From Candidatus Thorarchaeota archaeon (GTDB taxonomy: Archaea; Asgardarchaeota; Thorarchaeia; Thorarchaeales; Thorarchaeaceae): a DNA stretch of 64,000 nt. The notes beneath the pieces were generated by a model. It worked only from the letters and a program-made list of their open reading frames with translations. It was not told the origin of the DNA and made no database searches. The position numbers and the translations under genes are program-made. Location of the stretch: assembly GCA_016840685.1 (NCBI GenBank), contig JAEORX010000001.1, forward strand, positions 1 through 64,000, given 5' to 3'. Positions within the stretch are counted from its first letter, which is position 1, and each line of letters begins with the position of its first letter. Shown here in pieces: positions 2,289-16,149 of the stretch.

Positions 2289-4577
2289 ATGGAACATACA
2301 TTGTACCTCAGCGAGTCAGAGAGTCAAGACTTTAAGGAAAGCGTCAATCACCGCAGAAGTAACAGTCAATATTCGGGGGAAGATGCTTTGACCCTAGAGA
2401 GTCTCTCAGAAATACCTGGCGTTGGTGAGAAGGTCAGACAGGCCTTGATCGAACACTTTGGCAGTGAGGCACTTGCGCTCAAGGTAATCCATGACTCACG
2501 TGTTGATCTCGTGGCTGCTGTTCCAGGCATCGGGTCCAGGCAGGCCGTCAATCTTGTCAAAGGTGCCTTTGAGAAGGAGTTTGGTGCCAGTTCCAACATG
2601 CTCCTACGTAGCCAAGACATCAGAAAGATCTACGAAGCCAGCCTTGATATCATCCGAGGATATGCAAACACCACCTATGCAAAGGATAAGTTGTTTCTCT
2701 ATTTTCCACTTCCCCCAGAGAAGTTAGGCGTCATCCTTGAACGCCAGAGGTACTTTGCGGATGCCGCCCACATGGCGAAGGGACTCACAAGCGACCAGCG
2801 TGAGAAACTCAGAGGTCTACTGAGTCAGATTCGGGGTCTCTACCGGCGCGTCAAACCACGCAGACTGGAGGGTCGAGTGATCATCACCAATGACGACAAA
2901 GTGTTTGACACATTGGTCAAAGAGGGTGTGGACCGATGGTGTCCTGTGTACGTCATCTCTGATGGTGAGAATGCTGCTGACTATGCACAGGGCTATGATC
3001 TAGTTCTCTATATCTCTCCACTGGGAATCTATGATGAGTCAGTGGATCTGCTTGATAATGTAGAAATCCTGGGAAAGGACTGGTCAATCGAGGATGTACT
3101 ACCAGAGAAGACCGTGAGTTTCTATGCACGGAACTATCGTGTGATTGACGCATCCTGTCAACTCGTAGAAGCCTTCAACCAGATTCCCAAGAATGACTCT
3201 GTCAACACCTTCACATCAGGACTGGACTTTGACAGACTGATGAAGGTGGGGGAGATACTCAAGAACTTGGATGAGAACGGTGATCTGGCTAAGGGAGTAG
3301 ATGCAGAGCTTGACAGGTATCGAAACGCTGTAAAGTCGTTTCCAACCGCTGTGGCCGAAACAGAGGCATGGTTGAACGATGAAATAACCTCCCGGATTTC
3401 GAAGAGCAAGGTCACGTTGGGTGGACAACAGATCATCAGTATCCTTCAATCTGCTGATATGGAAGGTGCTGATGGCAGTGCACTGAGAAACATGTTGCCT
3501 GCTGAGATAGTCGAAACCTTCACCACAACCCTTCAGGAGGCTGAAGACAGGCTGGCTCAGATGCTAGGTCTGACAGCACGAGAAACCGATTGGATGACAG
3601 GCATTATCAGCGAGGAGATAGTCCTACCAATTCAGATGGTTCCAAACCAGGTCAATGACCTTGAAGACAAACTCAGGCGAATCTTTGCAGACAAACAATT
3701 CAGGCTCATAAAGAGGTTCGCGAGCGAATTGGACCAACTCACAGACGTAGTAACACACGCAGTACAGACCCTCCTTGAGTTTGATTTGTTCCTCGCTGTG
3801 GGTCTGTTCTCAGCAGACTATGCACTGACCACACCCAATATCTCTCCTGAATACACTGGTGTTGGTGTGCAAGGTGCAATCAATCTGTTTCTAATGGAGA
3901 GCCATCTCAATGGAAAACATGGGACTGTCGAACCCATCGATTATTCCATTGGAAGAAATCCCTACCAACCCCCTGGGACAAATAGCGAGAACTGCGCTAT
4001 CCTCTCAGGAGCAAACAGTGGTGGGAAGACAACAACAATCCAGACCTTGGCCCAGATTGTCATCCTTGCACAATCAGGATTGCCGGTCCCCGCCAAGAAT
4101 GCTTATCTTCCAGCCTTTGAAGAGCTGTACTTCTTCTACAAGAGCAGAGGAATGGTGAGCGCTGGAGCCTTTGAAACGACCCTAAAACAGTTTGCTGAGA
4201 TAGTGGTTTCTGACAAGGCGAAGTTGGCACTGTTTGATGAAGTTGAGGCAATAACAGAGCCTGGCAGTGCTGCCAATGTGATTGCTGGGCTCATCGAGAT
4301 TCTTCAGAGTGACCCCAGAACCTCCACAGTCCTCTGTAGTCACCTCGCAAGAGAGATCAAGGAGGTCACTGATGCTTCAATCAGAGTGGATGGAATCGAG
4401 GCGAGAGGCCTTGATGAGAATCTTGAGCTCATCGTAGACAGGACTCCGAAATTTGGCATACTGGCTCGAAGCACACCTGAGCTCATTGTCGAGAGACTCT
4501 CAAAGCTTGCCAAAAGTCCCAAGAAGGAAGTCTACACTAAGATACTGGATAACCTCACCAGAGTTCGAACCAAATGA
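2289..4577 (+). CDS. HhH-MutS family ATPase (archaeal MutS2-like)
   Basis: 762 aa. Residues ~35-100 contain two helix-hairpin-helix motifs (IPGVGEKV and VPGIGSRQ), followed by a long helical clamp/lever region and a C-terminal MutS-type ABC ATPase: Walker A GANSGGKTTT near residue 577, a family-typical helix after it, Walker B LALFDEVEAI, and an SHL motif (VLCSHLAREI). There is no MutS mismatch-recognition domain (no Phe-x-Glu) and no C-terminal Smr domain, so it is closer to the archaeal MutS-related group than to MutS1. Probable role: ATP-dependent DNA binding at branched DNA. The ATG at 2289 follows 75 bases after the dehydrogenase. The next gene overlaps its stop by four bases (ATGA), suggesting translational coupling. 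Confidence 0.85.
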   Translation: MEHTLYLSESESQDFKESVNHRRSNSQYSGEDALTLESLSEIPGVGEKVRQALIEHFGSEALALKVIHDSRVDLVAAVPGIGSRQAVNLVKGAFEKEFGASSNMLLRSQDIRKIYEASLDIIRGYANTTYAKDKLFLYFPLPPEKLGVILERQRYFADAAHMAKGLTSDQREKLRGLLSQIRGLYRRVKPRRLEGRVIITNDDKVFDTLVKEGVDRWCPVYVISDGENAADYAQGYDLVLYISPLGIYDESVDLLDNVEILGKDWSIEDVLPEKTVSFYARNYRVIDASCQLVEAFNQIPKNDSVNTFTSGLDFDRLMKVGEILKNLDENGDLAKGVDAELDRYRNAVKSFPTAVAETEAWLNDEITSRISKSKVTLGGQQIISILQSADMEGADGSALRNMLPAEIVETFTTTLQEAEDRLAQMLGLTARETDWMTGIISEEIVLPIQMVPNQVNDLEDKLRRIFADKQFRLIKRFASELDQLTDVVTHAVQTLLEFDLFLAVGLFSADYALTTPNISPEYTGVGVQGAINLFLMESHLNGKHGTVEPIDYSIGRNPYQPPGTNSENCAILSGANSGGKTTTIQTLAQIVILAQSGLPVPAKNAYLPAFEELYFFYKSRGMVSAGAFETTLKQFAEIVVSDKAKLALFDEVEAITEPGSAANVIAGLIEILQSDPRTSTVLCSHLAREIKEVTDASIRVDGIEARGLDENLELIVDRTPKFGILARSTPELIVERLSKLAKSPKKEVYTKILDNLTRVRTK

Positions 4578-5149
4578 GTCAACGTGTCCTTGTCTTTGGA
4601 GACGCCCATATTCCCTCACGTAGGGACTCTATTCCTGAAACGTTCTACAGCCACATTCAACAGACCAACTATGATCTGGCCCTAATAACTGGGGATTTGG
4701 TGCGTGAGTCTGATATGCGGGCTGCTCTCCCTCCTCTCCCACAAAGCTTCATTGTCATCGGGAACATGGACTATGGCAGTCAGTACAACTTTCATGAACA
4801 GGTTCAGCTTGACAAATTCAACGTGTTGCTCATCCATGGGACACAGCTTTCACCACGTGGCAATATCAAACAGCTCTGGGAGATAACACAACAGGTGGGT
4901 GCGGATATCGCTATTCATGGGCACACCCACACTGCATCTATCGAGATTCATAAAGACCGGCTGTTCTTGAACCCTGGAACCATCTCTGGAGCCACCGGTG
5001 GCTGGGCTGGAAGGACTGATGCCAGCTTCATTGAGCTTGAGGTGAGAGAGGATGATTTGGAGGTCCGGCTCTTCCTCACCGACTGGAAAATCATGAAGGA
5101 GTCATCAGTCAGATTCAAGAAAGAGGAGAGTCGGATTGTACGACTCTAG
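4574..5149 (+). CDS. YfcE/MJ0936-type metallophosphoesterase
   Basis: 191-aa calcineurin-like phosphodiesterase. All metal-binding motifs are visible: GDAHIP (D-x-H), GDLV, GNMD (N-D), LIHG and the C-terminal IHGHTHTA. Length and motif spacing fit the YfcE/MJ0936 group, which hydrolyses phosphodiester model substrates; the natural substrate is unknown. The start ATG overlaps the stop of the HhH-MutS gene (ATGA), so the two are probably co-translated, and a DNA-end or nucleotide processing role alongside the MutS-like protein is possible but only inferred from that coupling. The gene converges with, and overlaps by four bases, the leftward gene ending at 5146. Confidence 0.9.
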   Translation: MSQRVLVFGDAHIPSRRDSIPETFYSHIQQTNYDLALITGDLVRESDMRAALPPLPQSFIVIGNMDYGSQYNFHEQVQLDKFNVLLIHGTQLSPRGNIKQLWEITQQVGADIAIHGHTHTASIEIHKDRLFLNPGTISGATGGWAGRTDASFIELEVREDDLEVRLFLTDWKIMKESSVRFKKEESRIVRL

Positions 5150-5763
5150 TATTCTCCCCAAGGGTCAGGACTCAAGAGTCGCATGTAGAGCCGTTTGAGC
5201 ACATTGGAACTCTCGAGCACTGCCGCTTTGATGGTCTTGTGTGTGTCAACATCCCTAGGGGACTCCTTCATAGAGCCAAGGATTTTCCCCAGCCTTCCTC
5301 TCTTTCCCTCGCCCCTACCAGCGGCTTTCACCCTTTCGGGCGTCAACTTTTGAATCTCCTCCTCTGGGAATATGTCCCGTGTGAACCTCAGTTCTGAAAA
5401 GAAGGCTGAAAGAGTTTCCTTCACTGCCAATCTGTCTGGTGGTTCATCAGGCATCTCATACACCATGTCCAGTGCCCTCTTTCGAAGGTTCGTGGACAAT
5501 ATCGACTGAATCTCTTCTGCGAGTTCACGGTTTATTGCACAGGCGATGCCAATGTTGATCATGAGGATCCTGATTCGATCAAGAAGCATGCCAGTGTTAG
5601 TACCAACGAGTGACTTCCCTCTCATAGAAACCAACCAGTCCTCATACGTCTGATTGACCATGCGTAACTCTTCCTCATACTTGACAAGCTTCCCAATCTC
5701 ATCGGGTGGAATCAGAGTACACCACACCGTCATTGGCACGTGATCATTGGTCCCAAATGACAT
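5146..5763 (-). CDS. Conserved-looking hypothetical protein, helical
   Basis: 205 aa, no recognised domain. It is soluble, rich in predicted helix, with a basic Gly/Lys/Arg segment (GRGEGKRGRLGK) in the second half and several Leu-rich amphipathic stretches; no Cys pairs, no transmembrane segment. It converges on the phosphoesterase gene with a four-base overlap at the stops. Start ATG at 5763. Codon use is like that of neighbouring genes, so it is likely a real gene of the host genome. Function unknown. Confidence 0.7.
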   Translation of the reverse strand: MSFGTNDHVPMTVWCTLIPPDEIGKLVKYEEELRMVNQTYEDWLVSMRGKSLVGTNTGMLLDRIRILMINIGIACAINRELAEEIQSILSTNLRKRALDMVYEMPDEPPDRLAVKETLSAFFSELRFTRDIFPEEEIQKLTPERVKAAGRGEGKRGRLGKILGSMKESPRDVDTHKTIKAAVLESSNVLKRLYMRLLSPDPWGEY

Positions 5764-5876
5764 GGTCTGAGAGTCGCTTTCCTCCGTTTTCAGTATTACT
5801 TGTGTAGCTTTTGCGCTTGTGAATCTCTTCTAATACTCTTGTTCTCAAACAATCGACAGTCTATTTGGTGGTCAAA

Positions 5877-6152
5877 ATGGCAAAATACAAGGTCAAGATA
5901 GAAATCACTGACATCCTGGGAGAGGGAAAGTGCTCGATGGACCAGAAGGTGGGGGACTCGTACGACTATCCCGAAGACCGAGGAAAGATGTGCCCCAGCT
6001 CCTTCTATCTCCTCTATCCGTGGATCATGGTGATGCAGTCCGGGGGCAGGTTCACAGACGAAGGGGACGGAAGTGACTATATGACAGTGGGATGTAGCGA
6101 CTATAGACACCCGGTTGTGTACAAGATTAGCAGACACCTGATTGAAGAGTAG
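5877..6152 (+). CDS. TIGR04076-family small protein
   Basis: 91 aa from ATG 5877 (an in-frame TTG lies at 5865 but the ATG opens directly into the conserved AKYKVKIEI strand). Features of the family visible here are the KVGDSYD element, the CPSSFYLLYPWI segment, GC in MTVGCSDYRHPVVY, and the short length. The family occurs in archaea and anaerobic bacteria and has no established biochemical function; the two conserved Cys (in KMCPSS and VGCSDY) with an earlier Cys (GKCSMD) hint at metal or redox binding, which is inference. Confidence 0.75.
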   Translation: MAKYKVKIEITDILGEGKCSMDQKVGDSYDYPEDRGKMCPSSFYLLYPWIMVMQSGGRFTDEGDGSDYMTVGCSDYRHPVVYKISRHLIEE

Positions 6153-6222
6153 AGCAGGAGAATCACTCAGTACACGAGAGGGTCGAGTTCATATCAGTGA
6201 ATCACAACAGTCTGACATCATC

Positions 6223-7089
6223 ATGCACGACATCAGACCCCTCCGAGATTCGGACAGGGAGGACGTCCTGGAGATTGCCAGGCACACATGGGATGGACAT
6301 GACTACCTCCCCTACTTCTTTGATGCCTGGCTAACTGACAGAAACTCTCACACCGCTGCCATTGAGAGAGGGGGTCATGTTGTCGCTCTTGCAAACCTCA
6401 GAGTGATCGAGAATGGACGGACAGGATGGATGGAGGGTCTTCGGGTTCATCCAGACTACAGGGGACAGGGGCTTGCATCAATTCTGACACACCATGTCGT
6501 CAAACTGGCAAGAGAAATACCTGTCGAACGTATTCGCTACACCACAGCTGTTGGCAATGAATCATCTCTCCATCTGGGAACCACCATTGGCATGAGGAGG
6601 AAGTTCGACCTTGCTGTTCATTGGCAAGACAGATTGGACGAGGTCTCATGGAGCACGTCAGTCAGTCCCATCATGGAAGCTTCAGCTAAGAATCTATATC
6701 CATCTCTCGCTGAGGCAAGACTGCTCCCCCACAATGTTGTAGTCTATGACTGGAAGGCTCTGGACCTCTCCCCTGAGGCACTGGAGAAGACTGCTGTTCT
6801 AGCAAGATTCTGGATACAGTCACAAGGAGGCAGGATCGAGTCCTTCTCCTTGGGGTTTGCGCACGAGGATCCAGCTGGGATGCAATGGAGCGTCACAATC
6901 TACGCGAGGAATAATCCAACCTTCCTCGATCAGCTATCACATCATCTGAAGATGGCCTCTGAAAATGAATGCAGGACCATTTTTCTGACATACCCGATAG
7001 ACTATGTTAGCACCTTTTACTCGCTTGACTGGGTCCGTCCTATTGAGGATGAAGAGATGGCCTTGACTCTGCTTGAGAGGGTATTCTAA
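6223..7089 (+). CDS. GNAT-family N-acetyltransferase with C-terminal extension
   Basis: 288 aa. The N-terminal ~150 residues form a GNAT fold beginning IRPLRDSDREDVLEIA; the acetyl-CoA pyrophosphate loop is visible as VHPDYRGQGLASIL (R/Q-x-x-G-x-G/A) and the family-typical strand 5 as YTTAVGNESSLHL. The second half (about 140 residues) looks like a degenerate second GNAT-like domain or a substrate-binding extension. The ATG at 6223 is chosen because the family signature begins two residues later; an upstream in-frame extension to 6142 overlaps the previous gene and looks non-coding. Substrate unknown. Confidence 0.82.
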   Translation: MHDIRPLRDSDREDVLEIARHTWDGHDYLPYFFDAWLTDRNSHTAAIERGGHVVALANLRVIENGRTGWMEGLRVHPDYRGQGLASILTHHVVKLAREIPVERIRYTTAVGNESSLHLGTTIGMRRKFDLAVHWQDRLDEVSWSTSVSPIMEASAKNLYPSLAEARLLPHNVVVYDWKALDLSPEALEKTAVLARFWIQSQGGRIESFSLGFAHEDPAGMQWSVTIYARNNPTFLDQLSHHLKMASENECRTIFLTYPIDYVSTFYSLDWVRPIEDEEMALTLLERVF

Positions 7090-7111
7090 GTTTTCGTATC
7101 TGAAAAACTCC

Positions 7112-7118
7112 TTAAATC
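7112..7118 (+). promoter_or_regulatory. TATA-box-like element for the cupin gene
   Basis: The A/T element around TTAAATC lies about 30 bases upstream of the GTG at 7145. With the usual archaeal spacing of about 25 bases to the transcription start, the mRNA would be nearly leaderless, which supports the GTG at 7145 rather than the more upstream in-frame start that would overlap the acetyltransferase gene. Confidence 0.4.
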
Positions 7119-7144
7119 ATCGCCAATGTGCTATAGACATAGAG

Positions 7145-7525
7145 GTGTACCACTTGGACCATGAACACTACTCTATCAGTACCACACTCGAGGCTGACCC
7201 CCTAGAACTCATTGATATTCCAGGACTGATTGCATCAAGTATGAAAAACTGGCAGAACTACTCACTCTGTGAGGTGAACGACTGTGTAGTCAGGCTTGGT
7301 GTCATCCATGGAGAGTTTCACTGGCACAAGCATGACTTGGAAGACGAGTTCTTCTACGTGATTGACGGTCTGCTGCAAATTGATCTTGAAGACCAAACTC
7401 ATGACCTGCGACCAAGGCAAGGATTCATGGTACCAAAGGGAGTCCATCATAGAACCCGCGCACCAGAGCGCACGTCAATCCTAATGGTCGAAGGCAGGTC
7501 TATCACTCCAACTGGTGACGTATAG
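7145..7525 (+). CDS. Cupin-domain protein
   Basis: 126 aa from GTG 7145. A single small beta-barrel cupin: motif 1 is HGEFHWHKHDLEDEFFYVIDG (metal-binding H-x-H, E and following G) and motif 2 is PRQGFMVPKGVHHRTRAP with the third His. All four expected metal ligands (two His, one Glu, one His) are present, so a metal-dependent enzyme or binding protein is likely, but small single-domain cupins cannot be assigned a substrate from sequence. It lies 55 bases after the acetyltransferase gene and just left of the first tRNA-Asn-end-like repeat at 7532. Confidence 0.85.
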   Translation: MYHLDHEHYSISTTLEADPLELIDIPGLIASSMKNWQNYSLCEVNDCVVRLGVIHGEFHWHKHDLEDEFFYVIDGLLQIDLEDQTHDLRPRQGFMVPKGVHHRTRAPERTSILMVEGRSITPTGDV

Positions 7526-7531
7526 AAGAAA

Positions 7532-7543
7532 TGGCACCGCCAG
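7532..7543 (-). repeat. tRNA-Asn 3'-end-like repeat, copy A
   Basis: On the minus strand this reads CTGGCGGTGCCA followed by TTTCTTCT. Ten of twelve bases match CCGGCGGCGCCA, the 3' end of the tRNA-Asn gene at 11612-11623. It lies between the 3' ends of the cupin gene and the leftward peptidase gene. Confidence 0.5.
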
Positions 7544-7586
7544 CAGTCATAAATGATAGTCCCTGTAGACTTCTCCCTCAATCAGT

Positions 7587-9542
7587 CTATGATGTTCTTC
7601 TCCGAATGTATCCAGCCACGACAATTGTAATAGACGCAACCACAACAATCACTCCAATAGCTATTGCAACGGGGAACTCTTCAAACATCTGAATGTTTCT
7701 GGTCGACAGAGAATGAATACCCTGCTCAGTCAGTTCGACAAGGATATAGTCATCATAGAGCAAGCTCACCTCATCAGGCACGCCTGCCACTTCAAGAGTC
7801 AGTGTAGTCGTTCCATTTATCCACACGACTTCATCACTCAGAACCTCGTCTGTAGCGCTAAGGACCCTGATAGGTACCTGTTGCGAATATGAATATGGAT
7901 TAGAAACCTCATTGTCATCCTCAATAGTCACCATCAGAGTGCTCTCGTCTTTGTTATAGATTACGCTGACGAATGAATAGTCAGGCAGGCGAGGATTGTC
8001 AAACCATGGTAGAAAGAACCAATCCAAAGACCACCCACATACCGCCTCGAGAGCAGCTTGTAGACCCGCTAATGTACCAACCCTGAAGTAATTCTGCTTC
8101 AAGAATAGCGAGAGGCCTTCGACAAACTTCTCATGTCCTATATCGATACGTAGCTTCTCAAACACGAGTGGAGCCTTTACATACTCAAGGTATGTCACCA
8201 ACTCGGGCATATCATAGTTTGACTGGTTTATTGCAGCGTCTATTCCATTTTCAAAATAGAACACTCTCACAGAGTCTAGATATCGAGTATATTGGAAGTA
8301 CTCCCAGTCTAGATGAGAAACCTCACCAAAGTAGTTGTGAGACCAACAGGTCAGTCCTTCGTCGAGAAAACCCCAGTCAATACTGTCAATTCCCACAAGC
8401 TGCGACCACCATTGATGAACCACCTCATGAACGACTACCAACTCAAGATAATAGGGGGGTAGATTTCCTTCTCTCATGGATTGAAGGATGCCATTTGTTG
8501 CGTACACCTGGCACGGATACTCCATACCGCCATAGAATGCGAACTGCTCCACAACATTGAGTGTTGAATATGGATAAATGCCATAGGTCGTGTTGTAAAG
8601 CAATAGGGTTTCACTAGCCCAATTCAGGACATCATCTTCCCACTCTGTTTGAGAGTCTGGGATGTAAAAGATTGATACATTGACAGACCCCACCATCATA
8701 GACTCTATGACATAGTATCGAGAGGCTGAGAATGTGACCTCGCGTACCGGCAAGATGGGACTGAAATGGTAGGTAGTGTTGCCTCCATCGCTATAGCTCT
8801 CAACTAATTGACCTGTTGCCGCTACCACCATATCACTAGGGACTTCGACCATGAAGTCATAGAATGCCATGTCAAGGTAAAAGGGGTCTCCGAACTCAAC
8901 ATACCCATCTGTGTTCCAGCCATCATACTCATCGTAGACACACAGCAAGGGATAGCAACTGGCAAACGTGAATATTCTCGATTGGTCGATGTCACTACCT
9001 TGAGAGTTGGCCCTGTCTAGACCATCAGGCAGAGTGGTTTCGAATGAGATGCGAAACGAAGTTGTGCCATCTGATTCAACAGGTGCTGGAAGATCGACCC
9101 ACATTATCTCACCACCCGACGCGAAATTGTAGGACAGAGGCACCTCTGGAGCACCGACTGTGGTCACATTGAATATCTCAATATCTCCTTGCCTGCTGAC
9201 AAAATCCATGCCTGAGGTATAAAGGTGAAATGGAATGCTTGAGAAGGCAATTGGCTCGTCATTGTAAAACTCAATGGATAGATTGCCAGCGACAGTTGAT
9301 TGAGTATCATCCAGTGTGACCGACAAATTGACATGTGAGAAACTGGTGCCTGTGAAATTTCCCTGAGAGAACCGGTCGTAGTCATCGAGGTCGGCTTGAC
9401 TCAACGAAGCCTGAACCTCTGTTTCCAGATCTCTCTGAAGGCTTGGCAGTATCGAATCTGGAGGCATTATGGAAAAACCAGTGGACACAAGCATAAGAGC
9501 TATTGAAACAATAAGGACTCTCTTCAAAATCACAACTACCAC
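7587..9542 (-). CDS. Secreted, membrane-anchored M1-like zinc metallopeptidase
   Basis: 651 aa. An N-terminal hydrophobic segment (VLIVSIALMLVSTGFSI) acts as signal peptide; the C terminus carries a transmembrane helix (FPVAIAIGVIVVVASITIVV) and a short basic tail, giving an extracellular enzyme tethered to the membrane. The gluzincin core is visible: the exopeptidase loop as GGMEYP near residue 336, the zinc motif HEVVHQWW near 372 and the third ligand Glu in FLDEGLTCW 18 residues later. N-terminal beta-sandwich (aminopeptidase N-like) precedes it. GGMEYP instead of GAMEN is common among distant M1 relatives. Probable role: peptide degradation at the cell surface. Start at 9542 (GTG); a TTG 12-15 bases inside is also possible. 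Confidence 0.88.
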   Translation of the reverse strand: MVVVILKRVLIVSIALMLVSTGFSIMPPDSILPSLQRDLETEVQASLSQADLDDYDRFSQGNFTGTSFSHVNLSVTLDDTQSTVAGNLSIEFYNDEPIAFSSIPFHLYTSGMDFVSRQGDIEIFNVTTVGAPEVPLSYNFASGGEIMWVDLPAPVESDGTTSFRISFETTLPDGLDRANSQGSDIDQSRIFTFASCYPLLCVYDEYDGWNTDGYVEFGDPFYLDMAFYDFMVEVPSDMVVAATGQLVESYSDGGNTTYHFSPILPVREVTFSASRYYVIESMMVGSVNVSIFYIPDSQTEWEDDVLNWASETLLLYNTTYGIYPYSTLNVVEQFAFYGGMEYPCQVYATNGILQSMREGNLPPYYLELVVVHEVVHQWWSQLVGIDSIDWGFLDEGLTCWSHNYFGEVSHLDWEYFQYTRYLDSVRVFYFENGIDAAINQSNYDMPELVTYLEYVKAPLVFEKLRIDIGHEKFVEGLSLFLKQNYFRVGTLAGLQAALEAVCGWSLDWFFLPWFDNPRLPDYSFVSVIYNKDESTLMVTIEDDNEVSNPYSYSQQVPIRVLSATDEVLSDEVVWINGTTTLTLEVAGVPDEVSLLYDDYILVELTEQGIHSLSTRNIQMFEEFPVAIAIGVIVVVASITIVVAGYIRRRTS

Positions 9543-9687
9543 CTATCACTATATTCTAAGAAATCAGCTCAAAAACCCATTAAGACTACCGTCTTGAGCA
9601 ATCAATAGGCGATTGTGTAAATATCGACTATGGTTTCCTTGTTCTGTTCTCTCTTAAGCTATAATTGACAGACCGAGAGAGGAAATA

Positions 9688-9699
9688 TTGTGCCGCCGG
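9688..9699 (-). repeat. tRNA-Asn 3'-end-like repeat, copy B (weak)
   Basis: On the minus strand reads CCGGCGGCACAA, matching the tRNA-Asn 3' end perfectly over CCGGCGGC and then diverging at the discriminator/CCA. It lies in the divergent intergenic region between the peptidase and PRC-barrel genes. Weakest member of the set. Confidence 0.3.
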
Positions 9700-9721
9700 C
9701 AGCAAATTTGATGTTATAGTC

Positions 9722-9749
9722 AAGGAACTAAGAGCGAAGTAAGTTCTTT
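9722..9749. other. Imperfect hairpin in divergent intergenic region
   Basis: AAGGAACT and AGTTCTTT form an eight-pair stem (one G-U) around a 12-base loop. It lies between two divergent genes, so it is not at a gene end; the T-rich run after the right arm is short. Could be a regulatory element or the remnant of an element boundary. Confidence 0.3.
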
Positions 9750-9785
9750 TATTTTGACATCTTTTAAGCATACAACCCAAAACCA

Positions 9786-9803
9786 TATTAACAATTGTTA
9801 ATA
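9786..9803. promoter_or_regulatory. 18-bp perfect palindrome, probable operator of the PRC-barrel gene
   Basis: TATTAACAATTGTTAATA is a perfect palindrome lying 34 bases before the ATG at 9838. A TATA-like element (CTTTTAAGC) sits about 20 bases upstream of it. Position between TATA box and start codon is typical of archaeal repressor sites. The rest of the 295-base gap 9543-9837 holds repeat copy B and a hairpin; nothing else is evident. Confidence 0.5.
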
Positions 9804-9837
9804 AACCATCAAAAAGAATCTCTCTCGTGGTGAAAAA

Positions 9838-10506
9838 ATGAAGTTATCCAAATCAGTATGCTGTCAAGAAATCCAAAAAATGGATGTCATGGACGCGTCA
9901 GGTAAAAAGATTGGTAAAATCTCGAATCTGACATTCACATTCGATGGCTCACTCAAACTCAAGCACTTCATTCTGGGTGGATCAAGAATGGAGCAGTTAC
10001 TTGAAGCCATCAAGCTCAAACCAGATGAAGACCCTGTGTTCGAATCTACTGTAATCAAGAAAATAGATACTCACATTCATCTTGATACTTCTGTGAACGG
10101 TCTAAAGAATTTCCATGATACTATCTCCGATGATGAGATAAAGTTCTCAGACCTTCAGAAACTGGAGATTGTTGATAAAGACGGTGCCAAAGTAGGACGT
10201 GCAATCAATGTGGATTTTGATTTAGATGGTCGTACAGCATTGATAGCAGGTGAGGGTCTACTAGAAGAGAAGCTTGAAGCTTTTGGTTTGAAAGAAAACG
10301 TGGACATCATAGTACCTTTCAAGGTCATCGTTTCAATAGATGAATCAATCAGGCTCTCAGTTTCAAAAGATGAATTAGATACAAGTCTAGATGGGATACT
10401 GAGAGAAAGAGCAATTGAGATCAAGAACCAAAGAGAGGCTGCAGCAGCTCACAGTCATGGTAAAAAGGTACGAGTACCAGCCTACTGGCGCTATGGACCC
10501 GCATAA
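9838..10506 (+). CDS. Tandem PRC-barrel-like protein
   Basis: 222 aa. Two similar ~90-residue halves: the first contains VMDASGKKIGKISNLTF near residues 18-34, the second EIVDKDGAKVGRAINVDFDL near residues 107-126; both match the PRC-barrel pattern (V-x-D-x-x-G-x-x-[IV]-G) with following strands, so this is a duplicated PRC-barrel. The C-terminal ~30 residues (REAAAAHSHGKKVRVPAYWRYGPA) are basic with a possible tail. PRC-barrel proteins in archaea are soluble adaptor or RNA/cell-division-associated proteins; the exact role is not known here. It is preceded by an 18-bp palindrome. AT content is higher than in the 1-7 kb genes. Confidence 0.72.
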   Translation: MKLSKSVCCQEIQKMDVMDASGKKIGKISNLTFTFDGSLKLKHFILGGSRMEQLLEAIKLKPDEDPVFESTVIKKIDTHIHLDTSVNGLKNFHDTISDDEIKFSDLQKLEIVDKDGAKVGRAINVDFDLDGRTALIAGEGLLEEKLEAFGLKENVDIIVPFKVIVSIDESIRLSVSKDELDTSLDGILRERAIEIKNQREAAAAHSHGKKVRVPAYWRYGPA

Positions 10507-10611
10507 GAGCTTGCTACTTTCGGATTTTTGAACAAAAACCAATGATGTTTCAGAAAGAAACCAATATGGCGATGTCTGTACGCATTGAAGAATCGAAAGG
10601 AAAGAAGAAAA

Positions 10612-10623
10612 TGGCACCGCCGG
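10612..10623 (-). repeat. tRNA-Asn 3'-end-like repeat, copy C
   Basis: On the minus strand reads CCGGCGGTGCCA followed by the T-rich TTTTCTTCTTTCC; eleven of twelve bases match the tRNA-Asn 3' end. It lies between the 3' ends of the converging PRC-barrel and membrane-protein genes. The T-rich run after the CCA is tRNA-terminator-like. Confidence 0.55.
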
Positions 10624-10684
10624 TTGTTGTAGTACTAGTAATTGATGAATTTCTCTGTAATATTTCCATATACTATTGAAGCAG

Positions 10685-11305
10685 TTATGACTCGATGCCC
10701 ATTAGTTCTTTTTCAAGACTCTCAATTCTCTTTATTATCTTCCTTCTACTGCGCTCATCAATTTCGGGTGCCTGCGTGAATTTTTGTAAGATTTCAATGA
10801 ATGATCTATCCTGTCTTGCTGCTTCCAAGTCAATATTCTTCTTCTCATCCATTGATTTTTGATAGGTTCGAAAGCTGATGATGCCTAGAATCGGTGTGAG
10901 AATATAGATGAGTACTGCAACAAGATCCATTCCTATCGCGGATCCGAAAAAAGCCATTAAGATTAATAGAACTACTGAGGTAAAGCATAGTGCCATAAAT
11001 GCTCCATATACCATAGCAACTGTTTCTGGTTCCGGTTTGTCTATCCTCTGTTTCACTTCAATATATGACAAAAGCTCTGAAGGACTTAATGCACTGACTT
11101 CCCAGGTTCTAAGAAGGACAATACTCACCTCATTCTCACCTAACACATCAAAGGGATTAGTATTTGCATCTCCCCAATGGACACGTTTTACTTCATATTC
11201 AGCATATCTCGAGTCACTCTGAAGGACTCTCTCTAATTCCTTGCATTTTTCATCCTTGTACAAAGTCCCCCATTCTAAATCAGATGAGTCCACCTCAATC
11301 TTCAA
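10685..11305 (-). CDS. Two-helix membrane protein of unknown function
   Basis: 206 aa. About 90 soluble N-terminal residues, then two adjacent transmembrane helices (VAMVYGAFMALCFTSVVLLI and VAVLIYILTPILGIISF), then a charged C-terminal helix of about 60 residues with coiled-coil character (RSRRKIIKRIESLEKELMGIE). The topology puts both termini on the same, probably cytosolic, side. No recognised family. Start ATG at 11305. The gene is AT-rich and bounded on both sides by tRNA-Asn-end-like repeats (copies C and D). Confidence 0.65.
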   Translation of the reverse strand: MKIEVDSSDLEWGTLYKDEKCKELERVLQSDSRYAEYEVKRVHWGDANTNPFDVLGENEVSIVLLRTWEVSALSPSELLSYIEVKQRIDKPEPETVAMVYGAFMALCFTSVVLLILMAFFGSAIGMDLVAVLIYILTPILGIISFRTYQKSMDEKKNIDLEAARQDRSFIEILQKFTQAPEIDERSRRKIIKRIESLEKELMGIES

Positions 11306-11377
11306 ACTCTTTTCCTCACATACGTAATGGGACTTGAACCGATATTATAGTTTCTTGACATTGGTTCCAAAAAGAAG

Positions 11378-11389
11378 TGGCGCCGCCGG
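11378..11389 (-). repeat. tRNA-Asn 3'-end-like repeat, copy D
   Basis: On the minus strand reads CCGGCGGCGCCA exactly as in the tRNA-Asn 3' end, followed by CTTCTTTTT. It lies 68 bases left of the tRNA-Asn gene in the opposite orientation, upstream of the leftward membrane-protein gene. Confidence 0.6.
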
Positions 11390-11457
11390 AAATTGGCATT
11401 AGAGAGAGGGACTGAACAGCAATGTTAATATTGAAACCCACGACCCCAGCCGAAGAA

Positions 11458-11623
11458 GCCGCCGTGGCTCAGTCGGTAGTATAGTGTTCTCTTGAGAACC
11501 CTATATCGAAAGCGACAGCCTGTTATCTTTCAGCCGGCTGGTTGAGAGCCAGACAGTTGTTGGTCGGAGGTTCGAGAACCATCATGACTCCCATGATGAT
11601 CCAATGCCCTCCCGGCGGCGCCA
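11458..11623 (+). tRNA. tRNA-Asn(GTT) with three introns and encoded CCA
   Basis: Acceptor arms GCCGCCG (11458-11464) and CGGCGGC (11613-11619) pair perfectly, with discriminator G and CCA at 11621-11623. Removing three segments leaves a 76-base cloverleaf: D stem GCTC/GAGC with loop AGTCGGTA, anticodon stem ACAGC/GTTGT with loop CTGTTAA (anticodon GTT at 11522-11524), variable TGGTC, T stem GGAGG/CCTCC with loop TTCGAGC. Intron 1 is 11480-11510 (31 nt) in the D stem after position 22; intron 2 is 11526-11554 (29 nt) at the canonical 37/38 site; intron 3 is about 11577-11606 (30 nt) in the T loop. Intron 1 fits a bulge-helix-bulge exactly: 4-bp helix CGGT/ATCG, bulges AG|T and AA|A. Intron 2 has 3 of 4 central pairs. 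Intron 3 has a 7-bp internal stem CATCATG/CATGATG; its exact junctions are uncertain. Confidence 0.9.
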
Positions 11624-11628
11624 TCTCT
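11612..11628 (+). repeat. tRNA-Asn 3' end, reference copy of the repeat (att-like)
   Basis: CCGGCGGCGCCATCTCT spans the last twelve bases of the tRNA plus five downstream bases. The same 17 bases occur in the same orientation at 12726-12742, exactly bracketing the M55 peptidase gene. Confidence 0.7.
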
Positions 11629-11716
11629 TATTTGATTGTAAACCATTCACTTCTAATTCTTGCTTAGGTCTTGGTTATTATTAGTGTTAAATGATGAAAG
11701 CGATGATGTGGTCAAT

Positions 11717-12661
11717 ATGAGAATCTTGATTTGGGATGATATTGAAGGTATTGCTGGTATTGATGATCCAGAACACGGTTTTGATGATGATACCTACAAA
11801 CGATTGATTACGCGGGAGATAAACGCTGTAATCAACGGACTAGTAAAAGCGGGAGCAAAAAAGATAGACATCTTTGATGGGCATGGAATGGGAAACAATG
11901 TGATATTAGAAGACTTGAATCCTATAGCCAATTATCTGGGGGGTGGCTGGATTACTACTCTAACTGAATTAATCAAGAAGAAAAAACTAGGTCAGTATAA
12001 TGCGCTAGTTTTGGTAGGAGTACATGCACAGGCTGGTACTGTTGATGGGTTTATTGCTCATACTAACTCTAGTTTTACAGCTTTGAGAATGAACAGTCAA
12101 CCAATCGGTGAGATTGAGCAGGCTGGCTGGTTAGCAGGTCACTTTGGGGTACCATTAATCTTTGTCAGCGGAGATGAGGCAGCTGTAAAAGAGGCGATAC
12201 ATTTCTTCCCAGAGATAGAAACGGTTTCAGTAAAGAAGAAAGAACAGGATACCTTTGTGTGTAGACCAGTAGAAGAGGTTTACAAAGAAACTGAAGAAAA
12301 GGCTTTCAAGGCACTGAGTAGATTAAAGGAATTTGACCCCCATACTTGTGGAGAACCAATCACTGTAGAAATTCTCTTTGGTTTGGAAGAGTTAGCACAG
12401 AGATTAGTGATAATTCCTGGTTATGATAAGAAAGATGAGAGAACAGTAATCTATCAAGCAGAAGACTATCTTGAAGCATTCTGGGCGTTTCATGGATTTA
12501 GACCAATATTATCTTCACTTATGGGGGATTTTTATCATAGAGCCCTAAAGAGAGTTATAGAAGAATATAATCTTGATAGTGATAATCTCAATCTAATTCT
12601 GAAAGATATCAAAGATGAGATGTTGACAGGAAGATTATCCTTTCCAGAGATAAAATTCTAG
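11717..12661 (+). CDS. M55-family (DppA-like) peptidase, copy 1
   Basis: 314 aa from ATG 11717 (weak ribosome site GTGGTCA just upstream; the frame is open further upstream without a better start). Matches the D-aminopeptidase DppA/M55 fold: N-terminal ILIWDDIEGIAGIDDPE (D-x-E-G metal site), IFDGHGMGNN, VGVHAQAGTVDGFIAHT (H-x-x-x-G, A-H-T), GEIEQAGWLAGHFGVPLIFVSGDEA. DppA is a zinc-dependent decameric aminopeptidase for D-Ala peptides; the D at the second residue pair replaces the usual A-D-M-E-G, but the acidic and His ligands remain. Substrate here is unknown. The gene is strongly AT-rich and lies between two exact copies of the tRNA-Asn 3' end (11612, 12726). Confidence 0.8.
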   Translation: MRILIWDDIEGIAGIDDPEHGFDDDTYKRLITREINAVINGLVKAGAKKIDIFDGHGMGNNVILEDLNPIANYLGGGWITTLTELIKKKKLGQYNALVLVGVHAQAGTVDGFIAHTNSSFTALRMNSQPIGEIEQAGWLAGHFGVPLIFVSGDEAAVKEAIHFFPEIETVSVKKKEQDTFVCRPVEEVYKETEEKAFKALSRLKEFDPHTCGEPITVEILFGLEELAQRLVIIPGYDKKDERTVIYQAEDYLEAFWAFHGFRPILSSLMGDFYHRALKRVIEEYNLDSDNLNLILKDIKDEMLTGRLSFPEIKF

Positions 12662-12725
12662 TTTGGTGATTATATCATGATCCAAAAGGATCTTCCATTT
12701 GGATAGATTCCAGCAAGATGTTCTA

Positions 12726-12742
12726 CCGGCGGCGCCATCTCT
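12726..12742 (+). repeat. tRNA-Asn 3'-end repeat, copy E
   Basis: Seventeen bases identical to 11612-11628 (CCGGCGGCGCCATCTCT), same orientation, 1114 bases downstream. The only gene between the two copies is the M55 peptidase. Confidence 0.75.
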
Positions 12743-12756
12743 CATTCTAAATGGGA

Positions 12757-13011
12757 TTAACCAGCAGGCCAGTCATCTGTTTCATTCTTTGGAGAACGTA
12801 CTATCTCATTGTATCGAATAAGTCTGCACTTCTTGCATCGGTATCCAGAAACTCCTGACTTGAAAACAAAACCCTCTGAGAGATGATCACCACAGATACC
12901 GAAGAATCGAGGAATCTTTTTACACCAAGAGATACGTCGTGGAGAAACAAGGTACCCAAATTCCATATTTTCCCCGCAAGATGGGCATTTCTCAGTCGCT
13001 TCCAATTCCAA
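12757..13011 (-). CDS. DUF6487-like zinc-ribbon protein
   Basis: 84 aa. Two Cys pairs: CPSCGENMEFGYL near residues 9-21 and YRCKKCRLI near residues 57-65, separated by a segment with RRISWCKK and a hydrophobic GFVF; this matches the small zinc-ribbon group typified by DUF6487 (CPxCG..M..G....R...W). Likely a structural zinc protein; function unknown. Bounded by tRNA-Asn-end copies E and F. Start ATG at 13011; the gene runs opposite to the M55 gene and converges with it. Confidence 0.7.
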   Translation of the reverse strand: MELEATEKCPSCGENMEFGYLVSPRRISWCKKIPRFFGICGDHLSEGFVFKSGVSGYRCKKCRLIRYNEIVRSPKNETDDWPAG

Positions 13012-13056
13012 ACTCCCTTCTGATATTGAGATGCCTTAAAGACACATCAACATTTG

Positions 13057-13071
13057 CTCCCGGCGGCGCCA
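13057..13071 (+). repeat. tRNA-Asn 3'-end repeat, copy F
   Basis: CTCCCGGCGGCGCCA matches 11609-11623 of the tRNA-Asn gene over 15 bases, same orientation, then diverges right after the CCA. It lies between the start of the zinc-ribbon gene and the end of the Ig-like surface-protein gene. Confidence 0.65.
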
Positions 13072-13112: not shown

Positions 13113-13547
13113 CTATTTTTCCCTCATCTTCATTAGCCTAGGTCCATACTTGGCTAATACCAACACCACAACAAGAACAACGATTACTATTGTGATTATG
13201 CCGCCTACTTCTGTCCCAATGAAGTTCCATTGTTGACTGACTGCATAGGTTGTCCCTGTCCCATCAATACCATACAGTGTGATATTGGTAGACCCCTGTG
13301 CATAATCTCCTGTATTGAACAGCCAAGTGATGGTGTTGCCAATGACGAAATGGACCTGTTCACCATTGAAGTAGACGGTCAGATTGTCAACAGCCTCCGG
13401 ACCGCTTCCACTCAGTGTGAATGTACCTTGGATGTAGTTTCCAAATGCCATTCCAACGTTCCGATGAATTGACATACTGAGTGACTCTTGGGATGCGACC
13501 TGTAACGGGAGGCAACAAAACAACAGAACTATTGTCAAGATAATCAT
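13113..13547 (-). CDS. Surface protein: signal peptide, beta-rich domain, C-terminal membrane anchor
   Basis: 144 aa from ATG 13547, 28 bases after the ZIP gene. N-terminal signal peptide (MIILTIVLLFCCLPLQVASQ), then about 90 residues of beta-strand-rich sequence with Ig-like character (YIQGTFTLSGSGPEAVDNLT, VYFNGEQVHF, STNITLYGIDGTG) and N-glycosylation-type sequons (NLT, NIT), then one transmembrane helix (GIITIVIVVLVVVLVLA) and a basic cytosolic tail (KYGPRLMKMREK). Topology: outside domain tethered to the membrane. A frame extension upstream to 13610 overlaps the ZIP gene and is not preferred. Probably co-transcribed with the ZIP transporter; function unknown. Confidence 0.72.
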   Translation of the reverse strand: MIILTIVLLFCCLPLQVASQESLSMSIHRNVGMAFGNYIQGTFTLSGSGPEAVDNLTVYFNGEQVHFVIGNTITWLFNTGDYAQGSTNITLYGIDGTGTTYAVSQQWNFIGTEVGGIITIVIVVLVVVLVLAKYGPRLMKMREK

Positions 13548-13575
13548 GTGTTGAGTCTTGTGATTCAATATACAA

Positions 13576-14367
13576 TCAGCCTCCGAAGAGAAATCCAAAG
13601 ACATTATCAAGAGTCATCATTATGATGAATCCAGACATAATCCCCCATGTTGCTACACGCGCATTTTCAATTGAGTGGCTCTCTGGAATCATTTCATCTC
13701 CAACAACAAAGATCATGGCTCCCGCCGCGAAGGCCAATCCATAGGGCAACAGAAATGCAGCGACCGAAACTATTGATACTCCCAGAATTCCTCCGATAGG
13801 TTCCACAAGTCCCGTCGCTAATGCTAGTAAAGCAGCTTTTCCCCTCGGATATCCCTCCCTGACTAAGGGTGCAGCCACAGCAAGCCCTTCAGGTATATTT
13901 TGCAACCCAATAGCAACTGCAACTGAAATCCCCGTCAATGGATCAGCGACACCAAATGAAACTCCAACAGCCACTCCCTCTGGAAAATTATGGATGGTGA
14001 TTGCAAGCATCAAGAGCCAGACTCTCGACATGGTTGATGACGGCCCCTCGCATCCTTTCTCAAAATGGGCATGCGGAACGTACTTGTCTGCTAAATGAAC
14101 GAATAAACCACCCAATCCAAACCCAAGCGCTACAACGGTCAATACATCAGTCCAGTCATTCACCAAAGGATCTTCTAAGGCTGGGACTAGGAGACTGAAT
14201 GATGATGCGGCAAGCATGACCCCCGCAGCAAACCCAAGCATGATGTCTAGCGCTCGTCGAGTAAAGTCACGTTTGAGAAAAATCGGTATTGCTCCTGCAC
14301 CTGTTGCCACTCCTGCTATGAGACTCGCAATTGCACCAAGAAATACAGTTTCGCTTAAGAGCTGCAT
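13576..14367 (-). CDS. ZIP-family divalent metal transporter
   Basis: 263 aa, about eight transmembrane segments. The family-defining His/Pro helices are both present: HNFPEGVAVGVSFG (helix IV) and QNIPEGLAVAAPL (helix V). A short His/acidic loop (HLADKYVPHAHFEKGCEG) between helices III and IV is the usual metal-sensing loop. Imports Zn2+ or Fe2+/Mn2+ into the cytosol; metal preference cannot be told from sequence. Length and motifs match the GufA-like subgroup. Followed closely by a surface-protein gene in the same direction. Confidence 0.93.
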   Translation of the reverse strand: MQLLSETVFLGAIASLIAGVATGAGAIPIFLKRDFTRRALDIMLGFAAGVMLAASSFSLLVPALEDPLVNDWTDVLTVVALGFGLGGLFVHLADKYVPHAHFEKGCEGPSSTMSRVWLLMLAITIHNFPEGVAVGVSFGVADPLTGISVAVAIGLQNIPEGLAVAAPLVREGYPRGKAALLALATGLVEPIGGILGVSIVSVAAFLLPYGLAFAAGAMIFVVGDEMIPESHSIENARVATWGIMSGFIIMMTLDNVFGFLFGG

Positions 14368-14512
14368 AACAGGTTGAGTTACTCATCATATTCTTAAGGG
14401 AACCGATTTGTAATTGTAATTTCCAAGAAAACATGTTCTAATATACTGATAGAAGAAAAGAAATGGGACCAAAAACCTGTTAGGACACACTCGAAAGAGG
14501 TGGGATTTCTCA

Positions 14513-14986
14513 ATGTCAGAAAAACAAGAGAGATGGCGTAGATCTCCCGAACTTCGTGATGATGCTTTCAGAGCGTGGCATAAGGCAAATGGAGAACTCA
14601 ATCCCAGTTCTGTTGTTGCCACAGTCGATGAGGATGGATGTCCTCATATTGCACCTTTTGGTAGCATGCGAGCAGTCACACCAAGTTTGCTGCGTTTTAT
14701 TGTTCATCGCTACCATGACACTCTGAAGAATCTAAAACGTGATGCGCGTGTCATGGTTGCTTTGATCTCTTCACCTGATATTGCAGTGAGTATCAAGGGA
14801 AATGCGAGAATCGTTGAAGAGCCATTTACAATCGATGAGAATTACGCTCTTGTTGATATCGATATTGACGAGGTAAAGAATGATATGCCTGTTCAGATTG
14901 GGATTGAATCAGGCGTGTCAATCTCACCAAGCGGTCCTTTTGTGGCCTGGTGGGAAAAATTATGCAAGAGGATGCATGAAAAATAG
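14513..14986 (+). CDS. Pyridoxamine-5'-phosphate-oxidase-like FMN-binding protein
   Basis: 157 aa. The split-barrel flavin-binding pattern is visible: SSVVATVDEDGCPHIAPFGS (strands 1-2), LLRFIVHRYHDTLKNLKRDA (phosphate-contact region) and RVMVALISSPDIAVSIKGNA. Such proteins bind FMN or F420 and reduce or sequester various substrates; in archaea many are F420- or FMN-dependent reductases of unknown substrate. ATG at 14513. The gene stands alone between the ZIP gene (divergent) and the second M55 gene (convergent). Confidence 0.8.
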   Translation: MSEKQERWRRSPELRDDAFRAWHKANGELNPSSVVATVDEDGCPHIAPFGSMRAVTPSLLRFIVHRYHDTLKNLKRDARVMVALISSPDIAVSIKGNARIVEEPFTIDENYALVDIDIDEVKNDMPVQIGIESGVSISPSGPFVAWWEKLCKRMHEK

Positions 14987-15064
14987 ATTGATCCCACTTG
15001 ACTGAAAAATGAGAATATGTATTGGTTATTATCCAATTAATATGTATCTCTACTCTGGGGTTTA

Positions 15065-16021
15065 TTAATCCGAATCCCAGTTGGCTCCCAATCTAGTACA
15101 CCTTTGTTTTTTCCATTTAGTTATTGTTCCCTCGAAATAATCCATTTCTATCAGAGATGAAACTAATTCGTGGCTCTCGTAGTACTTGGCAATACTAATT
15201 GATGCATCAATGAAGCTACTTGCCTCATCATAACTTCTCGTAACGTATGTAACAATAGAATCATCCTTTAATTCCGCATTAGGAATGTTTTGACATGCAA
15301 AAGCATGTTCTCGGGAGTTGAATGAAATCTCTATGCTGAAATTATTCGGGAGTATGAATGGTTTTATCTCCGTTAATCTTTTTGTTACTCCAAAAGCAGC
15401 ATCTTCTATGTTTTGTCTTACATGTTCTAGTGGTAGGAGTTCACATCTATTTCGACTCAGACTTTTTTTGGTCACTATATGCTCTGCATCAGGCATCAAA
15501 GATTCAGCCTCCTTCATTGCGACATCATCTCCAGTAAACAGAATTGTCGGGATATTATGATTACTGGCCCATAAAACGTGTAGATGAATTTCCCCGATTT
15601 CCATCCCATTAATCCAAATCCGAAGAGGGGGATAGTGTATTCTTGTATGACTCATGAAACCTTTTGCTTGTCTTCTCGCATGACATCCTAGCAGAACTGA
15701 TGCATTTACTTTGGCGCCTATCTCTTTTCGTAAAGTTTTCCGGTCTTGTTTTTGCATCTCTTCTTTTGTAATGAGCTGAGCATTTCGGTCAAGCAAATCA
15801 GGGCGAATATTAGGTGATGCATCATAACCATGCCCATCGATGACATATAACTCATCAATTCCGCCTCTCTTGAAACCTTTAATCGCCGCGTTTGTTTCCT
15901 TTGTGATGCAAATCTGGTACTCAGAGGAAGCTGGGAAGACTTGAGAGGGATCATCCACTCCGCTTATGCCTTCTAGGTCAAGCCATATTGCCAAACTATA
16001 ATCATTTTTCTGCGATACCAT
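15065..16021 (-). CDS. M55-family (DppA-like) peptidase, copy 2
   Basis: 318 aa, a distant paralogue of the protein at 11717-12661. Shared motifs: IWLDLEGISGVDDPS, VIDGHGYDASPN, VLLGCHARRQAKGFMSHT and GEIHLHVLWASNHNIPTILFTGDDVA. The D-x-E-G, D-G-H, C-H-A and S-H-T metal/catalytic elements are all kept. Both copies carry D-L/I-E-G-I-x-G-V/I-D-D-P at the N terminus, so they form one subfamily distinct from bacterial DppA. Substrate unknown; D-amino-acid peptides are the family precedent. Start ATG at 16021. Standalone and AT-rich. Confidence 0.78.
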   Translation of the reverse strand: MVSQKNDYSLAIWLDLEGISGVDDPSQVFPASSEYQICITKETNAAIKGFKRGGIDELYVIDGHGYDASPNIRPDLLDRNAQLITKEEMQKQDRKTLRKEIGAKVNASVLLGCHARRQAKGFMSHTRIHYPPLRIWINGMEIGEIHLHVLWASNHNIPTILFTGDDVAMKEAESLMPDAEHIVTKKSLSRNRCELLPLEHVRQNIEDAAFGVTKRLTEIKPFILPNNFSIEISFNSREHAFACQNIPNAELKDDSIVTYVTRSYDEASSFIDASISIAKYYESHELVSSLIEMDYFEGTITKWKKQRCTRLGANWDSD

Positions 16022-16149
16022 TTCCCATCACAACCCACTATGGGGTGTTTACGAAATAAAAGGAATCTTATCAATTCTATTTGACCCCTTTCTTGTTGAA
16101 ATCTCAGAACCTTAAAAAAATCGGGTGAAATTAATTTTAAAATCATTTT

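Follow-up and report, generated by a model that had tools for sequence, protein, structure and literature searches.

The window considered here, a stretch of 64,000 nucleotides of a Candidatus Thorarchaeota archaeon (positions 1 to 64,000 of contig JAEORX010000001.1, assembly GCA_016840685.1), contains at 7532–13071 a row of units with a single gene in each; every unit is closed by a copy of the 3′ end of a tRNA-Asn gene. On balance, the row was probably built by serial homing-like insertion, in which the old 3′ end of the tRNA gene is displaced each time by a process that a family of LAGLIDADG-like endonucleases drives, in the manner of the WHO elements of yeasts but with single cargo genes. 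The genome to which the window belongs (G000; genomes are given below as G numbers and loci as L numbers) comprises 3.23 Mb in 252 contigs and is 94% complete; the window lies on contig 60.

The core of the repeated sequence, TGGCRCCGCCGG, was searched with at most one mismatch, and weaker copies were scored by a position matrix. All copies listed in an earlier note on this DNA (7532, 9688, 10612, 11378, 12726 and 13057) were found in addition to the tRNA end, the last of them including three flanking bases before the core at 13060. Gene calls and Pfam confirm for every interval what the note had claimed, namely that a single gene lies between neighbouring copies (M1 peptidase, PRC-barrel protein, membrane protein, tRNA-Asn, M55 peptidase and zinc ribbon). 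All seven copies, the tRNA end included, sit outside genes, and the identity of 11612 and 12726 over 17 bases (the core and TCTCT, the five bases past CCA) is exact. The genome-wide count proposed in the note confines the core to this locus: the whole of G000 holds six matches, every one of them within these 5.5 kb. In the window, 0.09 matches are expected from shuffled sequences, and six were reached by none of 100 shuffles. About 13 such matches per genome are predicted by a base-composition model and none was found outside 7532–13071, which indicates that the core is no interspersed repeat. The exact 19-base form of the site occurs in 24 stretches of GTDB genomes, eight of them from Candidatus Thorarchaeota metagenome-assembled genomes (MAGs) and 16 from scattered bacteria with one match each.

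The comparison with related genomes, also suggested earlier, revealed that gene order is not kept among relatives and that the units vary. The flanks of the locus are conserved (MutS-like, phosphodiesterase and cupin genes on the left, ZIP on the right), whereas the content between them is variable. At least two clustered copies are present in at least nine of the 16 genomes of the genus (G000, G002, G003, G004, G006, G007, G009, G010 and G011), and arrays at tRNA-Asn were found in other genera as well (G028, G031, G029, G065 and G067). The consensus of 42 sites is GAAGAAG-TGGCGCCGCCGG-KAG, consisting of a purine-rich trailer, the 12-bp core and three bases towards the T-arm, where conservation ends. 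Six genomes of genera g5, g10 and g13 (G019, G030, G059, G034, G024 and G027) show a single tRNA-Asn-like end in the stretch read and no match to the endonuclease family.

Differences between relatives fall at the copies. In the list of alignments, which was restricted to those ending near copies, G005 (pieced from separate contigs) and G014 have 1.1 kb in common at 88% up to KAG and then diverge, G014 continuing with the tRNA body and G005 with another gene. Between G004 and G011 (whose two contigs overlap by 120 identical bp), similarity at 80% extends over 3.6 kb and stops at KAG; a part of the membrane-protein unit common to G010 and G009 at 93% stops at the core, and the PRC unit common to G006 and the window starts from the core. 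Seven alignment ends, including examples from these four pairs, coincide to within 15 bp with a copy in each of the two genomes compared. In the control with 441 alignment ends from 20 loci, 22 query-side ends are no more than 15 bp away from a site, whereas random placement gave 4.2 on average and at most 12 in 500 trials. The cargo genes keep their orientation to the site: the membrane-protein family recurs in several arrays and runs antiparallel to the site in all cases that have one, and the zinc ribbon is parallel to it in the window and in G007. The M1 and PRC genes are adjacent in G000, G003 and G006. As this common pair is on the outer side and the units nearer the tRNA differ, the inner units look younger than the outer ones, judging by the sequences compared.

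The tRNA-Asn genes of G001, G002, G011, G065 and G067 (L171, L129, L041, L139 and L140) have no encoded CCA, and the copies near them in G002, G011, G065 and G067 do have it. It is possible, therefore, that the tRNA's own 3′ end has been exchanged.

The gene family associated with the tRNA ends encodes LAGLIDADG-like proteins. Its genes end 27–56 bp from the tRNA-Asn core in G012, G065, G067, G031 and G028; where the gene is mostly present, the protein has 565–796 amino acids (aa), and G067 and G028 show 208 and 162 aa. A gene of about 190 aa lies between the family gene and tRNA-Asn in G002 and G005, and further family genes are located at tRNA-Asn in G021, G022, G009, G017 and G035. Family matches were obtained in 31 of the 47 genomes of the taxonomic family, with up to 12 in each, and in 41 of 227 genomes phylum-wide, where matches outside the window's family are strong in f9 only. 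A HerA/DUF87-type ATPase gene precedes the endonuclease in G002 and shows a weak similarity to CedD, far under the cut-off. In Thorarchaeota, a single genome can have as many as nine matches to this ATPase family (L129, 3475–6201), which weakly resembles the DNA translocase CedD and may be a transfer part of the element.

The targets of the family were assessed in a list of 64 rows (open reading frames, ORFs, of at least 150 aa with at least 300 bp downstream, some rows being pieces of one gene); one of the 42 locus rows, L258, was a HerA match and was removed. By eye, 25 of the 64 rows end convergent to a tRNA 3′ end, 20 of them directly and five past a gene of about 200 aa, a count that is biased since some loci were fetched via the tRNA-Asn site. 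The commonest target is tRNA-Asn, followed by Ala, Phe, Asp, Met and unassigned tRNAs, and two more rows (L245 and L296) end against a same-strand tRNA 3′ fragment. An automatic detector, which misses interrupted T-arms, placed 14 of 48 family ORFs and 46 of 863 others at tRNA ends (p 5e-7). For the loci fetched for the endonuclease only, the figures are 9 of 41 and 11 of 331 (p 7e-5). Some family copies abut protein genes, named by eye as those of S19, an adenosylhomocysteinase-like and a hydrogenase-like protein. In L276 and L277, the family gene and its partner of about 200 aa are followed, by eye, by an initiator-like tRNA-Met encoded in the same direction, unlike the usual tail-to-tail position. 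L256 (8036–12409) and L278 (1207–5631) contain family ORFs of 1457 and 1474 aa, followed in the same direction by a sequence read as a methylmalonyl-CoA-mutase-like gene; they are possibly insertions inside a gene or an intein-like form.

The predicted structure of the family has a LAGLIDADG fold, and both acidic catalytic motifs are conserved. The AlphaFold model has a mean pLDDT of 75.7, with a poor N-terminal part, and its residues 241–637 match the TliVMA intein homing endonuclease (Z 15.6, 3.2 Å over 183 residues); the match of the model to I-DmoI gave Z 13.2 (3.7 Å over 159 residues). In a Foldseek search against the PDB, the best E-value was 3.2e-3 and the first 17 rows were all LAGLIDADG proteins. 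The acidic residue is present in all aligned rows, 39 of 39 for motif 1 and 43 of 43 for motif 2. In sequence-based searches, PF14528 matched one copy below its cut-off, a sequence search of solved structures found no homologue of the endonuclease, and five copies scanned against NCBIfam were assigned to no family. No zinc finger was found in the family proteins scanned with Pfam, NCBIfam and PHROGs, the N-terminal part being poorly modelled. Relatives in viruses were not found by a pattern search and tblastn of viral contigs, nor by tblastn of one copy against phages; by structure alone, a phage homing endonuclease came out as the best match among viral proteins (E 1.2e-4).

Units with endonuclease genes and units with cargo genes also occur at other tRNAs. 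In L266, a single tRNA is accompanied by four units of one gene each, of which the unit next to the tRNA is the endonuclease gene. The endonuclease unit of L272 is joined by one cargo unit, and that of L270 by a unit of three genes. In L266, L270, L271, L272 and probably L243, direct copies of the target end flank the endonuclease unit; tRNA-Phe and two further tRNA loci are among the targets where this is seen. In G011, the unit nearest the tRNA is a remnant of an endonuclease gene. What is repeated at tRNA-Phe and the other tRNA loci is in each case the end of the local tRNA. This bears on the idea that the copies are functional elements, such as terminators, processing or regulatory sites, or chance matches. 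Their trailers are pyrimidine-rich as RNA, which we read as a resemblance to archaeal terminators. However, the copies match the local tRNA, their orientation is independent of that of the genes, the counts in the window make chance unlikely, and the differences between relatives point to copies that depend on insertion history and not on the adjoining gene, so the idea is very improbable.

The earlier note had placed the array in a setting of tyrosine recombinases, and this was not supported. The note was right that no integrase is encoded among the genes of the array region, and none was found beside the window's tRNA-Asn; moreover, G000 as a whole has no match to the tyrosine recombinase (PF00589), serine recombinase (PF00239) or Cas1 families, and no candidate for an integron integrase (PF00589 with the IntI domain). 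Serine recombinases match in five of the 16 genus genomes. The main rival explanation is, nevertheless, that circular one-gene cassettes are integrated at tRNA-Asn in trans by a tyrosine recombinase, encoded on a plasmid or virus not seen here; the copies would then be att sites, and the LAGLIDADG genes would lodge there without a part in the process. Such enzymes classically leave their inserts between direct repeats of a tRNA 3′ end, as in SSV1 (PMC3293823, available part), PF00589 genes are present in 20 of the 36 genomes searched, and plasmids may be missing from MAGs. On the other hand, seven of the nine array-bearing genus genomes (G000, G002, G003, G004, G006, G010 and G011) gave no PF00589 match, with some in G007 and G009. 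Of 46 integrase matches, 30 loci were retrieved, 15 of these from the window's family, and none has the site in its surroundings of up to 1.5 kb; a near-exact site pattern matched one viral contig, inside a gene read as tape-measure-like. We consider this explanation unlikely, and the family found associated with the sites is the LAGLIDADG-like one. A further possibility is insertion of the casposon or CRISPR type, in which a Cas1-family integrase would duplicate the tRNA end as its target site; casposons integrate at the 3′ ends of tRNA genes with duplication of a short target. Cas1 matches just one of the 16 genus genomes, which is not G000, and copies within one array differ in the core (two types in G011), unlike fresh target duplications; this origin has hardly any probability, even less than a functional role of the copies.

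According to the preferred reading, serial homing-like insertion, each event would separate the tRNA body from its old 3′ end by one unit with a single gene. The incoming DNA would bring the new 3′ end of the tRNA, and the old one, that is, the last ~15 bp of the gene with the purine-rich trailer, would stay at the far side. As old ends would be pushed outward at each insertion, the outer units would be older. The drivers would be free-standing LAGLIDADG-type endonucleases, sometimes encoded beside a HerA-like ATPase and a protein of about 200 aa. The endonuclease would cut the tRNA 3′ end, and repair from a donor with the tRNA and its units would copy the units in, a route that has been proposed for the yeast WHO elements at FBA1. 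Where a cargo unit has no endonuclease gene of its own, it would be mobilised in trans.

By analogy, the closest known mechanism seems to be that of the WHO elements, the closest Asgard case HeimM2 and the closest anatomy that of archaeal integrons. In yeasts, WHO homing endonuclease genes lie beside the 3′ end of a conserved gene, FBA1, and in the model of the authors an insertion supplies a new gene 3′ end and pushes the old one outward, giving clusters with the newest element nearest; some Kazachstania have an intron at the corresponding position (PMC7282813, available part). The likeness lies in the displaced 3′ fragments of the target and in the shared outer M1 and PRC genes with variable inner units; an endonuclease gene at the target 3′ end was seen in relatives at tRNA-Asn and other tRNAs and not at the window locus. 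The differences are that the system is archaeal, that its target is often a tRNA 3′ end and can be inverted, that the units carry single cargo genes, that the zinc finger of the intein–zinc finger architecture was not seen in the proteins scanned here, and that the copies measure about 15–30 bp, compared with about 400 bp in the available part of the WHO account (PMC7282813). HeimM2 of Heimdallarchaeum is an Asgard element with a homing-endonuclease homologue, situated between 16S rRNA and tRNA-Arg, which was proposed to have been co-opted for site-specific integration; it is a single element of 8 kb, and neither displaced tRNA ends nor a cassette array nor a family that acts at many tRNAs is mentioned in the available part of its description (PMC8813620). 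Archaeal integrons, enriched in Asgard archaea according to the available part of PMC9668308, have similar rows of cassettes split by short sites, most archaeal arrays being without an enzyme gene. Here, in contrast, the sites are the local tRNA 3′ end, and G000 lacks a PF00589 match. Elements of the SSV and pNOB8 types also insert at tRNA ends and leave a direct repeat, but use archaeal integrases, and rows of one-gene units are not described for them in the available part of PMC3293823. In the literature covered, which leaves most subscription papers and bioRxiv preprints outside, no title or abstract opening describes such arrays.

Several observations weigh against the proposed role of the endonucleases. 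At the tRNA-Asn of G000 itself, no family member was seen. The two that this genome does have are partial and sit at other targets; they are C-terminal pieces at contig ends (L264 on G000:C29 and L265 on G000:C132), convergent with genes named by eye as adenosylhomocysteinase-like and ribosomal protein S19. Arrays without a family match are present in G003, G006 and G010, which are incomplete MAGs. Among the family copies, 39 of 64 are not at a complete convergent tRNA end, and in a later set of 20 loci two are at complete tRNA ends. Convergent protein neighbours are not enriched (17 of 64 for the family and 276 of 936 for others), so protein-gene targets are only leads. Of 18 endonuclease units at tRNAs, far-end copies of the tRNA end are supported (40 shuffles each) in five, namely L266, L270, L271, L272 and probably L243; L261 is doubtful, as its copy may belong to another tRNA, and 12 are not significant. 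WhiA, which is a LAGLIDADG protein without cutting activity, matches the model as well as I-DmoI does (Z 13.3, 4.1 Å over 183 residues). As for the comparison of relatives, the insert of G005 sits on separate contigs, and, once the tRNA end itself is set aside, the enrichment of query-side alignment ends at copies is only mild (eight against a random mean of 3.0, maximum 9 in 500).

This mild enrichment also favours another rival, in which LAGLIDADG elements home at tRNA ends, cargo arrives by ordinary homologous recombination, old element units decay and neighbouring genes are left between displaced ends. The tRNA-proximal unit of G011 is an endonuclease remnant, in keeping with such decay, and yeast WHO clusters are rich in pseudogenes (PMC7282813, available part). 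However, the same cargo families recur across arrays in a fixed orientation to the site, the seven alignments end at copies in both genomes, and the cargo-only units of L266 and L272 adjoin an endonuclease-only unit. This rival appears less probable still than the recombinase acting in trans.

The earlier note had left the inversion around the tRNA unexplained. The inversion is real, and a reading can now be offered, as the tRNA faces opposite flanks in different relatives. Its 3′ end is directed towards the cupin side in G001, G004, G014 and G003 (judged in G003 from M1/PRC and ZIP), and in G013 and G011 as judged from one flank. It is directed towards the ZIP side in G000, G029, G065, G021 and G022, and, from one flank, in G002 and G067. 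In G003, which has M1 and PRC in common with the window, the tRNA is still directed towards this pair, a position that fits growth of the window's left array while the tRNA faced left. In a first phase, the left array would have grown in this orientation; the tRNA segment would then have flipped, leaving its old end behind at 11378, and the zinc ribbon and M55 units would have been added on the right in a second phase. The opposite orientations of the copies on the two sides would thus result from a flip between two building phases, which may have occurred by cutting or by recombination at inverted copies. A comparable inverted copy 5′ of tRNA-Asn is present in G002, G028, G029, G065, G067 and G031. 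The features of the locus are listed below.

Features of the tRNA-Asn array and its flanks in the window
Feature	Position	Strand	Evidence and remarks
Conserved left flank (MutS-like, phosphodiesterase, cupin, others)	2289..7525	.	blastp clusters 0, 1, 2, 4, 6
Leftmost displaced copy of the tRNA-Asn 3′ end, with the cupin gene on one side and the M1 peptidase gene on the other	7532..7543	+	1 mismatch to core; matrix score 29.6
Unit gene: M1-like peptidase	7587..9542	-	PF01433, E 5.6e-14; adjoins PRC also in G003 and, by eye, G006
Weak (decayed) copy	9688..9699	+	8 exact bases; matrix score 16.1, best background 7.1 (window 20-64 kb)
Unit gene: PRC-barrel protein	9838..10506	+	PF05239; DNA similarity to G006 starts at site
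Displaced tRNA-Asn 3′ end copy	10612..10623	+	exact TGGCRCCGCCGG
Unit gene: membrane protein, family recurs in relatives' arrays	10685..11305	-	blastp cluster 3, 6 members
Inverted copy upstream of tRNA, read as former 3′ end left by flip	11378..11389	+	exact core
tRNA-Asn(GTT), three introns (D-loop, anticodon loop, T-loop)	11458..11623	+	spliced form called by ARAGORN
Core as genuine tRNA-Asn 3′ end	11612..11623	-	core match; spliced tRNA call
Unit gene: M55 D-aminopeptidase	11660..12661	+	PF04951, E 5.6e-56
Displaced tRNA-Asn 3′ end copy, 17 bases identical to tRNA end and trailer	12726..12737	-	core match
Unit gene: zinc ribbon (DUF6487)	12757..13011	-	PF20097; 43% relative in site-bounded unit of G007
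Displaced tRNA-Asn 3′ end copy, outermost right	13060..13071	-	exact core
Conserved right flank (165 aa protein, ZIP transporter)	13113..14367	-	clusters 5, 12; ZIP in 13/16 genus genomes

The introns of the tRNA-Asn (31, 29 and 30 nt) were placed by hand; ARAGORN misses the unspliced gene and calls tRNA-Asn(GTT) after their removal, and an Rfam scan of 4–16 kb of the window gave weak matches alone, missing this intron-rich tRNA. The possibility that the copies supply small proteins with their start codons (ATG GCR CCG CCG) was rejected because the copies follow the tRNA and not the genes. The AT-richer composition reported earlier is real (GC 0.41–0.44, compared with about 0.49 to the left) but is not limited to the array, as low GC runs on to about 24 kb. 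The part at 14000–24000, with GC of about 0.41–0.43 up to tRNA-Met (24502–24578), may be a further variable stretch. It contains, outside the copies, a second M55-like peptidase gene (15065–16021), 32% identical to that of the array.

The T-loop introns lead to a broader proposal. At the tRNA-Phe loci L270 (by ARAGORN) and L272 (by eye), three of the four displaced copies look intron-free and the resident T-loop is interrupted, a pattern that resistance of the incoming ends would predict. In L271, the far copy seems to share part of the resident's interruption, which does not fit this idea. Introns have been proposed to protect tRNA genes (PMC3293823, available part). A plausible but more tentative view, to which we give slightly less than even weight, is that endonucleases with dedicated specificities for tRNA and gene ends build and exchange single-cargo arrays in Asgard archaea as a platform for gene capture. 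Displaced tRNA ends would serve as boundaries and T-loop introns as immunity, and the function would be integron-like without a site-specific recombinase. If this is true, cassette-array gene capture would not be limited to tyrosine-recombinase integrons, and a homing endonuclease and host repair would be enough for it. The old idea that tRNA introns guard against mobile elements would become testable, given the intron-free displaced copies and the interrupted resident at tRNA-Phe. The biology of yeast WHO and HO would be linked with an archaeal counterpart, and Asgard archaea would gain a route for the uptake of single genes.

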